A stretch of 64,000 nt of DNA from Verrucomicrobiota bacterium JB023 (GTDB lineage Bacteria > Verrucomicrobiota > Verrucomicrobiia > Verrucomicrobiales > Akkermansiaceae), in assembly GCA_030673895.1 (NCBI GenBank), contig JAUTCR010000062.1, positions 1 through 64,000 of the forward strand, given 5' to 3'. Position 1 is the first letter of the stretch. Every line of letters begins with the position of its first letter. Positions 48,489 through 58,028 of the stretch are shown here, piece by piece. The position numbers and the translations under genes are program-made. The notes below the pieces were generated by a model. It saw nothing but the letters and a program-made list of their open reading frames with translations. It did no database searches and was not told the DNA's origin.

Positions 48489-49061
48489 CTAGAAGGGAAG
48501 CTTCTCCGCCTTCTTCACGCTCTTCACTTTCATTCCGAATTCTTTAATCGCTTCGGTCACCGCGTCCTTATCCAGCGTCGTGTCTTCGCTGAGATGGATC
48601 GCAATGTCATTGTTCACGTAGGCAGCAGCGACGCCGTCAAGTTTCTCCAAGGCCACCCGGGCCTTCTCATTCTTGATCGCTCATGTCGCTCCACTCACAG
48701 CCAACTCGTAGGCAGCCTGCGGTCGAGGCATCGTTGTTTTTTCAAACGACTCGAATTTGAGCCCGCCGCTTTTGAGCGCTTTTTCGACTTCCGCTTGGTC
48801 GAGCTTTTCCCCTTCGTTCATCAGGATGGTCGCCCGTAGGCCGGACAACATCACTGAGTTCACGCCAGGCTGTCTGGTCATGGCCTCACGGACCACTTTC
48901 GCAGCACTTCACCCGCCACCGGAAGCGGTGACCACATAAGCAGCCACCATATCGTCTGCCTGGGCCGCGCTATCGACCTTCTCATCCCGCACGTCGGCGA
49001 GGAGAGGAGCGATCAGCAAGCCACTGGCAGCCATCACAATTGATACGAATTTCAATTTCAT
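48489..49061 (-). CDS. Exported double-HMA protein with two in-frame TGA codons (candidate selenoprotein)
   Basis: Read through two TGA codons, this is one uninterrupted 190-residue protein. A signal peptide (MKLKFVSIVMAASGLLIAPLLA) is followed by two heavy-metal-associated (HMA, ferredoxin-like) domains (about 41-108 and 116-184). TGA-1 (codon 51, 48909-48911) follows VTASGGG and TGA-2 (codon 127, 48681-48683) follows AVSGAT. Both occupy the first Cys of the GMxCxxC metal site of their domain; the second Cys is Ala-type (UxxA) in domain 1 and Lys (UxxK) in domain 2. A hairpin with a G in the loop follows each TGA at the distance expected of a bacterial SECIS. The terminal stop is TAG. Alternatively it is a pseudogene, but both lesions would have to be TGA at the same site. 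Ordinary prediction would split this gene. Confidence 0.75.
48649..48683 (-). promoter_or_regulatory. SECIS-like hairpin after TGA-2
   Basis: On the minus strand 15 bases separate the TGA (48681-48683) from the perfect stem AAGGCC/GGCCTT (48660-48665 with 48649-48654), with loop CGGGT. A 6-bp upper stem, small loop and G at the second loop position agree with the published bacterial SECIS pattern. Confidence 0.6.
48875..48911 (-). promoter_or_regulatory. SECIS-like hairpin after TGA-1
   Basis: On the minus strand 13 bases separate the TGA (48909-48911) from the stem TGGTC/GACCA (48891-48895 with 48875-48879), with an 11-base loop CGTGAGGCCAT that has G at position 2. The stem is shorter than at TGA-2, so support is weaker. 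Confidence 0.45.
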
Positions 49062-49140: not shown

Positions 49141-50673
49141 TCAGGAGGCGCCTTGGCTCCATCGTGCCCAGAATTCCGCTGTTTGCACCGCATCGGGGAC
49201 GATCTCGACAACCGTGGTCCCCGGGGTGAGCTTCTCTAGCTCGTCGAAGTCTTCCCGCGCGGTCAGGCGCAAATAGCCGAGCCCCCACATGCCAGCCCAG
49301 TCCCCGAAGTCGCGACCATGGCGCGTCGTCATCCATTCCCTCGCCCGTTCCGGCATGGTCTTCAGACGGGGTAGCCTCTCAAAGATTCGCCCCCCGTCGT
49401 TATTCATCACCGCGATCACTCTCTCTTCTTGCTCGACCTCCTCCAGCAAGTGAGGAGCAGCCAGATCATAGAGCACGGTAAGGTCACCGAAGATTCCCCA
49501 AGCCTTCCCTTCCTCCAAGGTGGCTCCCAGCCAAGTCGAGAGCTGACCGTCGATGCCATTGGCCCCACGGCTGGCGCGGACCAAGGTCACCGGCAGCTCC
49601 CGCTGTGCAAAGTCATTCCACTCCCGGATGGGCAAGCTATTGCCAAGAAAGACAGAATCTCCAGCCGCCGCAAACATGGACAGCTCCCTTATCATGGCCG
49701 GCTCGCTCTCTGGATAAGCTTCCAGCAATTCCGCCAACTCGTTGGCCCGCCGCCTTCCCAGCGGTAAGAGGTCGAGCGAATCCCCGAATTCGTCCATCTC
49801 CCCAAGACCTCTCAGCACCCGGGCGACATCGCCATGAATGACGGTCGAATCACGCGCCAACCCACTGAATCCCGTCCGGGTAATGGAAAATACTTCTACC
49901 TGCGGAAGCTCCTCCAAGTCCCGCCAAAAACGCCCCACCGGCACCTCGCCAATCCGAAGAACCTTCCCCGGAGGCTCCTGCCGGAGAAGGGCATCCGCAT
50001 CAACCAAGGCCAAATCGTCCACGGCTTCCCGGAGTCCACTCGTGGCATCGGCCACCACTGGTGCACCCAGCGCACGGCAGAAGTAATAACACTCCTCACG
50101 GTCATGAACCTCCAAGCCGCCGACCATCACCACCAGCCCGTCAATGGGGCTTCCTCGCAACCAGCGAGCCAGCCCACTCAAATCAACCTTCGGCCGTCCT
50201 CCTGACTCCCATGTCCCCGGGGTGACGTGACACTCCGGCGGCGACATAGACTCCTCAAGCTCCAGATTCACATGCAGAGGCCCCGCGCCCTCCCATTCCC
50301 CGATCTCGACAGCAGCATACTGGCCGAAGATCCCGACCTGCTCGATGGCTTGAGGGGCGCCACTCCCTCGGAATCTGGCCGGACGGTCTGCTGAGACGAT
50401 AATCAAGGGACGAGCCTGATAATAAGCCTCAATGACGGCTGGAAAGAGCTCGGCCACCGCCGTGCCACTCGTCACCACCACCGCGCAGGGCTCACCGGTA
50501 GCCATCGTGCGCCCTAGGGCAAAAAAGCCCGCGCCACGCTCCTCGAAGTGGGAGTGCACGGCAATGTCCTCCTGGCGGGAGAGACAATCCAGAATCGGCG
50601 CATTTCTCGCTCCCCCACAGACCACGAAATCCCTCACCCCGCGCTCAAGTAGCGCCTCAATTTCCTTACTCAT
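49141..50673 (-). CDS. menD: SEPHCHC synthase of menaquinone synthesis
   Basis: MenD is a thiamine-diphosphate enzyme that adds 2-oxoglutarate to isochorismate in classical menaquinone biosynthesis. The 510-residue protein has the thiamine-binding fold with E44-like FEERGAGFFALG (about 43-54), TSGTAVAEL, GNSLPIREWN (about 346-355) and SRGANGIDGQLST (about 371-383), the last two being MenD signatures, and a C-terminal VMNNDGGRIFERLP. It indicates menaquinone respiration. Its start overlaps the end of the upstream exported-protein gene, so they form an operon. Confidence 0.93.
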   Translation of the reverse strand: MSKEIEALLERGVRDFVVCGGARNAPILDCLSRQEDIAVHSHFEERGAGFFALGRTMATGEPCAVVVTSGTAVAELFPAVIEAYYQARPLIIVSADRPARFRGSGAPQAIEQVGIFGQYAAVEIGEWEGAGPLHVNLELEESMSPPECHVTPGTWESGGRPKVDLSGLARWLRGSPIDGLVVMVGGLEVHDREECYYFCRALGAPVVADATSGLREAVDDLALVDADALLRQEPPGKVLRIGEVPVGRFWRDLEELPQVEVFSITRTGFSGLARDSTVIHGDVARVLRGLGEMDEFGDSLDLLPLGRRRANELAELLEAYPESEPAMIRELSMFAAAGDSVFLGNSLPIREWNDFAQRELPVTLVRASRGANGIDGQLSTWLGATLEEGKAWGIFGDLTVLYDLAAPHLLEEVEQEERVIAVMNNDGGRIFERLPRLKTMPERAREWMTTRHGRDFGDWAGMWGLGYLRLTAREDFDELEKLTPGTTVVEIVPDAVQTAEFWARWSQGAS

Positions 50674-57107: not shown

Positions 57108-58028
57108 TTATTCGGTTTCTTCCTCACCCGCAGCCGCGGCTTTTTCTTCGAGGGCGGCGGTGATGTTCTCCTTGAACATCGGCACCATTTGCGCGAGCTC
57201 GGAATCCGGCTTCACTGCGGCCATCTCATCCAGTGCGGTGAAGGACTTCTCCTTTTCACCTTTTTCAACGAGAGCCATGATGCGCCCCATCATAACGTGC
57301 TGACGATTCTCGCCTTCCGGGTTGTGCTCAGCGAGGAAGCTGTCGGCAGTTTCAATAGCCGCGTCGTATTCTCCGGAACCCAATTGCTCTCCAATCTTGG
57401 TTTCGAACTCCATGACGGCTGCGGAGTAAGCAAGTTCCTTCTGAAGACCGGTTTTGTCTTCCGGGTCGAGCTTCTTCAGCTCGGCAAGTTCTTCGGAGTA
57501 GTGCTCTGTGATGTCGATGCCTTCAAGGCTCTTGAGGAAACTGGCAAGCGCTTCCGCCCTCTCTTCGCCTTCGGCCTCGTTAAGCGCCTCGAGAGGATCA
57601 TCCAGGTTGTCGATGTGGCTGAGATAAGCCTCCGCGCCGCCTTCTTGATAACCGGTCACGGCGAAGGGCCGCGCCTCGCTATCGAAAAGAATCACGGTAG
57701 GAAAGCCTTGGATGCCATACTCTTGCGCAACCTGCTCGTTCTTCGCCTTCTGCTCGGGGGTGATCAGGCTCTCATCCTGGGGGAAATCGAGCTCAACGAG
57801 CACATAATCCTCGGCGATTTTCTCGAATTCCGGCTGGTCAAAAACTTCATCCTTCAACCGGATACACCAGACGCACCAGTCCGAGCCGGTGAAGTCGACC
57901 AGCATCTTCTTATCTTGCTCTGCTGCAGCCTTTTTGCCTGCTTCGAAATCTTCCAGCCAGGTCAGTTCCGCATATCCCGTCGAGGCCAAACCTCCGAGAA
58001 CCGCCATGGTCACAATCGTGTTTTTCAT
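57108..58028 (-). CDS. Exported thioredoxin-fold protein with CVWC site
   Basis: This 306-residue exported protein has a signal peptide (about 1-20), a thioredoxin-fold domain (about 22-135) with the unusual active site WCVWC (C52, C55) and a cis-Pro motif IQGFPTVILF, then a helical, Glu/Ala-rich C-terminal part, perhaps tetratricopeptide-like (about 140-290). It is a paralogue of the next gene upstream, 65 bp away, and the two share FTGSDWC. Such thioredoxin-fold proteins act on periplasmic disulphides (inference). Confidence 0.85.
   Translation of the reverse strand: MKNTIVTMAVLGGLASTGYAELTWLEDFEAGKKAAAEQDKKMLVDFTGSDWCVWCIRLKDEVFDQPEFEKIAEDYVLVELDFPQDESLITPEQKAKNEQVAQEYGIQGFPTVILFDSEARPFAVTGYQEGGAEAYLSHIDNLDDPLEALNEAEGEERAEALASFLKSLEGIDITEHYSEELAELKKLDPEDKTGLQKELAYSAAVMEFETKIGEQLGSGEYDAAIETADSFLAEHNPEGENRQHVMMGRIMALVEKGEKEKSFTALDEMAAVKPDSELAQMVPMFKENITAALEEKAAAAGEEETE

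Follow-up and report, generated by a model that had tools for sequence, protein, structure and literature searches.

A gene for a putative selenoprotein with two selenocysteines (Sec, U) lies on the minus strand of the window, which here means the whole stretch of 64,000 nucleotides that was analyzed (Table 1). An earlier note on this DNA had proposed a frame of 190 codons that is interrupted by two TGAs alone, 76 codons apart, and ends at a TAG. This was borne out on the minus strand, and the plus strand is not open in its first frame over 48489-49061. The residues three positions behind the two Secs are alanine and lysine in the translated frame, in agreement with the motifs UxxA (first site) and UxxK (second site) that had been read there, and the contexts in the window's gene are SGGGU-SAAK (codon 51) and SGATU-AIKN (codon 127). 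From the look of its N-terminus, the protein is probably exported. Two of the 30 aligned members of the family (L038 and L039) contain an N-terminal cysteine resembling a lipobox.

Table 1. The predicted two-Sec gene, its features and two further genes in the window.
Feature	Position	Strand	Remarks
Predicted two-Sec selenoprotein gene	49061..48489	minus	ATG at 49061; 190 codons / 190 aa
TAG stop of the two-Sec gene	48491..48489	minus	
Probable signal peptide region, MKLKFVSIVMAASGLLIAPLLA-DV	48990..49061	minus	by eye
First predicted Sec codon, TGA (codon 51)	48909..48911	minus	TGA in 30/30 aligned members
First putative SECIS hairpin	48879..48897	minus	7-bp stem, 6/7 paired in the window's gene, loop CGTGA
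Second predicted Sec codon, TGA (codon 127)	48681..48683	minus	TGA in 30/30 aligned members
Second putative SECIS hairpin	48648..48666	minus	7-bp stem, 6/7 paired in the window's gene, loop CGGGT
First predicted HMA-like domain, ~residues 38-112	48726..48950	minus	AlphaFold + VIA-align; no Pfam match of its own
Second predicted HMA-like domain, ~residues 116-185	48507..48716	minus	AlphaFold + VIA-align; Pfam HMA E 1e-3, below cut-off
Thiamine-pyrophosphate enzyme	49141-50673	minus	Pfam TPP_enzyme_N E 7e-19; 79 bases upstream of the two-Sec gene
Thioredoxin-like protein (Thioredoxin_7)	57108-58028	minus	CVWC motif; signal-like N-terminus by eye

The neighbouring ORFs were clustered over 20 neighbourhoods, i.e., 18 loci of 5-10.5 kb, the locus L048 and the window. 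In the largest cluster, with 5 of 20, all ORFs but one overlap the gene in other frames, and it is followed by a cluster that is sulfatase-like by eye (4 of 20). The thiamine-pyrophosphate enzyme at 49141-50673, which we take to be MenD-like, belongs to no cluster of at least three loci. As no neighbour gene is widely shared across the 20 neighbourhoods, an operon partner was rejected.

Conservation of the two TGA codons and of the hairpins behind them

Within the family to which the source genome belongs, a match was found in 51 of 195 genomes. Fifty of the matches cover both sites, and in each of these 50 the only stops are two TGAs, a result that supports the earlier argument that two TGAs at these places are unlikely to be due to chance. 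The match in G153 is a 64-residue piece with one TGA close to a contig end, and G102 shows an extra weak, stop-free match besides its main one. The profile A1 matched 58 of the 386 genomes of the order and gave 50 rows with two TGAs, four of which lie in two further families (G198; G199, G202, and G206), so that the two-TGA homologue is present in 54 distinct genomes from three families of the order. Every two-TGA row of this search scored at least 89.8 bits and every other row at most 35.4 bits, and the matches listed contain no close relative that lacks the two TGAs. At the level of the class 20 of 384 genomes matched, 10 of them with two TGAs and all of these in families seen before; at the level of the phylum there were 8 matching genomes out of 387, two with two TGAs and both from the window's genus. 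Among the genomes sampled, the two-Sec family is thus seen only in this order. A search of genome contigs with a short peptide pattern gave one relative, a Roseibacillus MAG (Verrucomicrobiales, Verrucomicrobiota), the locus of which contains the sequence of G034, a genome of the window's genus.

Thirty members were aligned, namely those of the 50 same-family matches for which loci were returned, with L048 dropped as a duplicate. Both TGAs stand in the same columns in all 30 and form the sole invariant Cys/Sec columns, the full set of invariant residues being M1, G48, G50, U51, G66, S73, G74, G124, U127, R135, and A147. The two Secs are 76 codons apart in 24 members and 77 in six, and 75 to 77 codons apart in ten further genes. 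The loss of the second cysteine of each CxxC, which had been noted for the window's gene, extends to the whole alignment, as none of the 30 members encodes a cysteine near either Sec. Behind the first Sec one cysteine each occurs in L041 and L044 and none in the other 28 members; all other encoded cysteines are located at least 35 residues before the first Sec. According to this survey, the selenols are the sole strong nucleophiles in most members.

A version with Cys in place of Sec was not seen among the members of the family proper. Homologues with Cys at both sites, which the earlier note had named along with TGA-containing ones as a check, are two more distant proteins, L101 from the same-family search and L100 from the profile search of the order. 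Both look exported, comprise two HMA domains with a CxxC in each, and match the family weakly, and the first cysteine of each CxxC aligns with the corresponding TGA.

A hairpin of seven pairs with a five-base loop (CGTGC, AGTTC, CGTGT etc.) is located behind each TGA, starting 14 nt (site 1) and 17 nt (site 2) from the first base of the UGA. Over the 30 sequences, 87.7% of the cells are paired at site 1, with double changes in five of seven pairs, and 92.1% at site 2, with double changes in six of seven. At both sites the paired cells, the double-change cells and the covariation score exceed all 500 shuffles, the number of pairs with double changes is equalled by 9 (site 1) and 26 (site 2) of 500, and there is no increase in further pair types, whose number is attained by 471 (site 1) and 103 (site 2) of 500. 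Because the members are related, these shuffles overstate significance. When the partner strand is slid by one to three bases, all measures drop, the exception being the pair-type count of site 1, with 11 at +1. RNAalifold alone recovers the inner four (site 1) and six (site 2) pairs.

Since the hairpins lie within coding sequence, a control was used in which codons were swapped for synonymous ones (2000 shuffles). The observed pairs amount to 182/210 at site 1 and 193/210 at site 2, whereas synonymous recoding gives 122 and 124 on average (z 12.1 and 12.7), and none of the 2000 shuffles reaches the observed values. For a subset of 25 less similar sequences the corresponding values are z 11.3 and 11.1. 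In a scan of 181 offsets per site (300 shuffles), the hairpins at +14 and +17 rank first with z 12.2 and 12.9, followed by runners-up with z 6.2 (site 1) and 6.5 (site 2). Ten genes outside the set from which the hairpins were defined, though related to it, keep 135 of 140 pairs.

The loop contains a G in 30/30 members at both sites and GT in 29/30 (site 1) and 27/30 (site 2). At the second site the loop is CGTGT or CGTGC in 27/30 members; the CGGGT of the window's gene deviates from this and, like the 6/7 pairs in each of its stems, counts against the selenoprotein reading. This loop is also the reason why a filtered scan of the window for TGA plus hairpin missed site 2. The scan gave four matches, site 1, +36537, -16404, and +32228. 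As Sec sites, +36537 and -16404 were rejected, being antisense to longer frames, which we take to be look-alikes of ATP synthase alpha and FabH, respectively.

Both hairpins usually encode K/R-x-R/S-x-A-L, although they are shifted by one codon relative to the UGA. The invariant Arg135 (codon 48659..48657, minus strand) is encoded by the loop of the site 2 hairpin as CGT or CGG, and the matching codon at site 1 alternates between Arg (CGT) and Ser (AGT), both of which keep the loop G. The codon offset, the position of Arg135 in the loop and the Arg/Ser alternation suggest that protein conservation near the loops may be partly RNA-driven.

Selenocysteine machinery and decoding of the UGAs

The source genome has a size of 4.03 Mb in 77 contigs and is 97.5% complete. 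The genes selA, selB, selC, and selD, for which the earlier note had proposed to look, are all present. SelB scored 329.5 bits (cut-off 242), SelA 441 bits (cut-off 268) and SelD 374 bits (cut-off 125). The tRNA-Sec reached 62.3 bits against a gathering score of 47 and is called tRNA-SeC with the anticodon TCA by ARAGORN. The tRNA-Sec model has another match above the cut-off (48.4 bits), which is a tRNA-Ser according to ARAGORN, and the call of tRNA-Sec therefore rests on score and ARAGORN jointly. In 14 control genomes the tRNA-Sec model gave matches in all 14, five of them above the cut-off, and the cut-offs for SelB, SelA, and SelD were exceeded in two, one, and two genomes, respectively. 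The SelD of the source genome (L049, C17:129582-130511) has an in-frame TGA in SSCAGUASK and is a selenoprotein candidate itself.

Across the 195 genomes of the same family, SelA was matched in 70 (69 above the cut-off). It is present in 48 of the 51 genomes with a homologue of the two-Sec gene vs. 22 of the 144 without one (Fisher p 9e-25, with the kinship of the genomes ignored). Three genomes with a homologue but no SelA match, G059 (96% complete), G109 (83%), and G150 (72%), were counted against the association; in these the genes were likely missed or unassembled. In G024, a genome of the window's genus, SelA is present and the two-Sec protein was not matched, which was likewise counted against it.

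Judged from these sequence comparisons, the gene of the window is almost certainly a genuine and functional two-Sec selenoprotein gene. The conserved SECIS hairpins at both TGAs are the strongest evidence and strengthen the earlier selenoprotein reading. That suppression or an altered genetic code instead turns the UGAs into Cys or Trp codons is very improbable. The cysteines at both sites of the two more distant double-HMA proteins would fit such a reading, but the genome contains the complete Sec machinery including a SelD with an in-frame TGA, the hairpins and the strong co-occurrence with SelA point to Sec, and neighbouring frames of 605, 510, and 359 codons, presumably IspG-, MenD-, and RecA-like, terminate normally when translated with the standard code. 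A decaying double-HMA gene, or a sequencing error, with the TGAs as nonsense mutations would account for two stops in frame and for a Pfam score below the cut-off, but is hardly conceivable given two TGAs in an otherwise open frame in 54 distinct genomes and covarying hairpins behind both of them.

Predicted HMA-like domains and related selenoproteins

The claim of two HMA domains was supported by an AlphaFold2 model of A1 with Cys in place of Sec (mean pLDDT 84.2, pTM 0.74, most of residues 1-34 at low confidence), which contains the beta-alpha-beta-beta-alpha-beta fold in two copies. VIA-align compared domain 1 with the HMA domain of Pikp-1 (6g10_B; Z 10.1, rmsd 2.7, 73 residues) and domain 2 with CopZ (6ff2_A; Z 9.8, rmsd 2.0, 64 residues). 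Since permutants of ribosomal protein S6, a non-metal ferredoxin-like protein, score nearly as high (Z up to 9.4), the fold by itself does not identify an HMA domain, and Foldseek matches to the ACT domains of SerB2 were taken as the common ferredoxin-like fold. A sequence profile searched against the PDB (E 0.01) does point to HMA specifically, as it gave eight matches, all of them named copper ATPases, CopZ or mercuric reductase, with CopA (1p6t) as the best (E 1.2e-7). The Pfam model HMA (PF00403) scored 19.9 bits in the window's protein against a gathering cut-off of 24.8, in the second domain alone, and was matched at E 0.01 by 11 of 30 members. Both domains are predicted to be HMA-like. 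The CxxC metal motif of the HMA domain is absent from both, and each contains one Sec. A search of the source genome with PF00403 (E 0.1) returned one 937-codon frame (L120) alone, and it is insensitive to divergent HMA domains, as the two-Sec gene itself was not listed.

Tandem HMA domains are known from CopA and ATP7B, which have CxxC in each HMA domain. With their two consecutive domains they rank among the top Foldseek matches (2rml, 2ew9, 2rop), but they carry a P-type ATPase part and the packing differs (rmsd 11.5-16.2 over both domains in Foldseek). MerP, a protein of one domain with CxxC, is also small and of the HMA fold, and the window's protein reached 21.8 bits with its model TIGR02052 (cut-off 92.55).

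Under NCBIfam release 20.0 the protein of the window stays below every cut-off. At E 0.01, 14 families were matched by any of the 30 members, and the best E-values let us infer that all 30 lie under the cut-offs. Most members (22/30, best E 4.7e-9) match NF041115 (UxxU_metal_bind), which likewise stands for a metal-binding domain of the HMA type whose metal site contains Sec. This model, however, spans 74 positions and one domain with both Secs in a single UxxU, whereas the window's protein has two domains with a lone Sec each (UxxA, UxxK) and reaches 26.5 bits (cut-off 95). MbdU (NF045648, metal-binding double selenoprotein) differs by its motif CU and was matched at E 0.01 by none of the 30 members. 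The same holds for NF045683, a MerT/CopZ fusion-like heavy metal transport selenoprotein, which resembles the family in its CopZ/MerP-type region but is named as a MerT-like transporter fusion of 235 positions.

NF045683 was matched by 12 of 17 members of a second set of proteins. The profile search of the order had yielded 25 shorter rows with a single TGA each; for 21 of these rows the genome also contains the two-TGA gene, and 17 of the 25 were examined (L082-L088 and L090-L099, from G071, G059, G064, G093, and others). These 17 loci encode exported-looking single-domain HMA selenoprotein candidates and form a second family. Like the two-Sec proteins they have a signal-like N-terminus, an HMA domain and a TGA at the same site, but they possess one domain and keep the second cysteine in 17/17 cases, as UxxxC (e.g., GMTUGVGC) or, in L091 and L095, as UxxC. 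In single-sequence folds inspected by eye, most of these TGAs are followed by a predicted hairpin. The profile A5, built from the 17 paralogues, matched 234 of the 386 genomes of the order, TGA-free HMA frames included, and gave no match in the window's own genome. Four pairs of adjacent or overlapping A5 matches on one strand with in-frame TGAs (G057:C47:5484-6041, G212:C31:102749-103216, G065:C32:910-1548, and G086:C188:207-860) are candidates for tandem genes or further two-domain proteins. The two-Sec family thus has a broader group of HMA selenoproteins at its side within the order, from which it is distinguished by the loss of the second Cys in both domains.

The comparison with described selenoproteins drew on passages of two reviews and a survey. 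Table 1 of a 2026 review lists 119 prokaryotic selenoprotein families and subfamilies (PMC13188914), and the others are a review of 2022 (PMC9312934) and the GOS survey of 2008, in which the MerP row counts two Sec-containing sequences (PMC2398784). The HMA-related or metal-binding entries in the table of the 2026 review include NF041115 (metal-binding protein, UxxU, two Secs), a MerT-like protein, a UxxC cation ATPase and MbdU (metal-binding, two Secs), and a two-domain protein with a lone Sec in each domain is not named there among the 119 families (PMC13188914). A literature search for selenoproteins combined with HMA, UxxU, MerP, MbdU or Verrucomicrobia, with mostly open-access coverage, did not find a description of the two-Sec family in titles or the beginnings of abstracts. 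We regard it as a new HMA-type selenoprotein family whose design, with two lone Secs, is unusual, set apart from the reviewed families by their descriptions.

Possible roles of the two selenols

The ribosomes would read both UGAs as Sec, with one SECIS hairpin per UGA, each recruiting SelB with tRNA-Sec. The product, which is probably exported, would fold into two tandem HMA-like domains, each of which has lost the second Cys of CxxC and retains a single chalcogen ligand, Sec. Since both Secs are kept jointly and almost no other Cys is encoded, the selenols most likely work together. The first choice for their function, offered tentatively, is that the paired selenols bind a soft metal ion such as Hg(II), Cu(I), Ag(I) or a similar one, which might be held between the domains or with a thiol of a partner, and which could serve buffering or detoxification outside the cytoplasm. 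Several observations count against a metal role, namely the loss of CxxC in both domains, the lack of neighbour genes widely shared across the 20 neighbourhoods, and the scores of non-metal ferredoxin-like folds close to those of HMA (Z up to 9.4). MerT (PF02411) had no match in the genome, which also counts against it, but the control is silent as well, with no match in any of the 14 control genomes, and absence from the genome does not follow.

The sequence data are compatible with the earlier suggestion of redox chemistry, or of mercury or selenium binding, rather than copper transfer. A redox function is a possibility of some weight. The selenols would then form an intra- or intermolecular diselenide in an extracytoplasmic oxidoreductase or peroxide scavenger, with the HMA fold as a scaffold. 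Two Secs that occur together with almost no resolving Cys would suit such an enzyme, classic metal transfer is made less likely by the missing CxxC motifs, and most uncharacterized selenoproteins are considered likely to be redox proteins in section 7 of the 2026 review (PMC13188914). On the other hand, the sequence profile and the fold are those of soft-metal binding domains, and NF041115, which among the named selenoprotein models is matched by most members, is a metal-binding one.

Improbable is a role in selenium supply, in which the two Secs would serve to store or carry selenium, or would let the protein sense its supply by being truncated when selenium is short. The presence of two Secs, the small size of the probably exported protein and its lack of an enzymatic domain would agree with this, but there are only two Secs, each at the same structural metal site within a conserved glycine-rich motif, and a store would need no such conservation of the site.

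Under the preferred reading of a metal-binding pair as well as under that of a diselenide, the two lone selenols on tandem HMA-like domains might be an obligate pair that makes up a single common selenium site, Se-metal-Se or diselenide, in an exported protein of Verrucomicrobia. No Cys version having been seen in this family, Sec would then be essential and not exchangeable for Cys; this, too, is put forward tentatively.

The family occurs in dozens of genomes of Verrucomicrobia and, as far as the scores show, above no NCBIfam cut-off, and gene callers that treat TGA as a stop cut the protein short. A single Sec per domain in a pair of metal-binding folds, with hardly any other Cys, is an unusual arrangement, and as a small soluble protein the selenoprotein makes the question of what a pair of selenols does in comparison with thiols testable. 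At the Sec sites the RNA signal and the protein would evolve together, as the loop codon CGT/CGG is at the same time that of the invariant Arg135.
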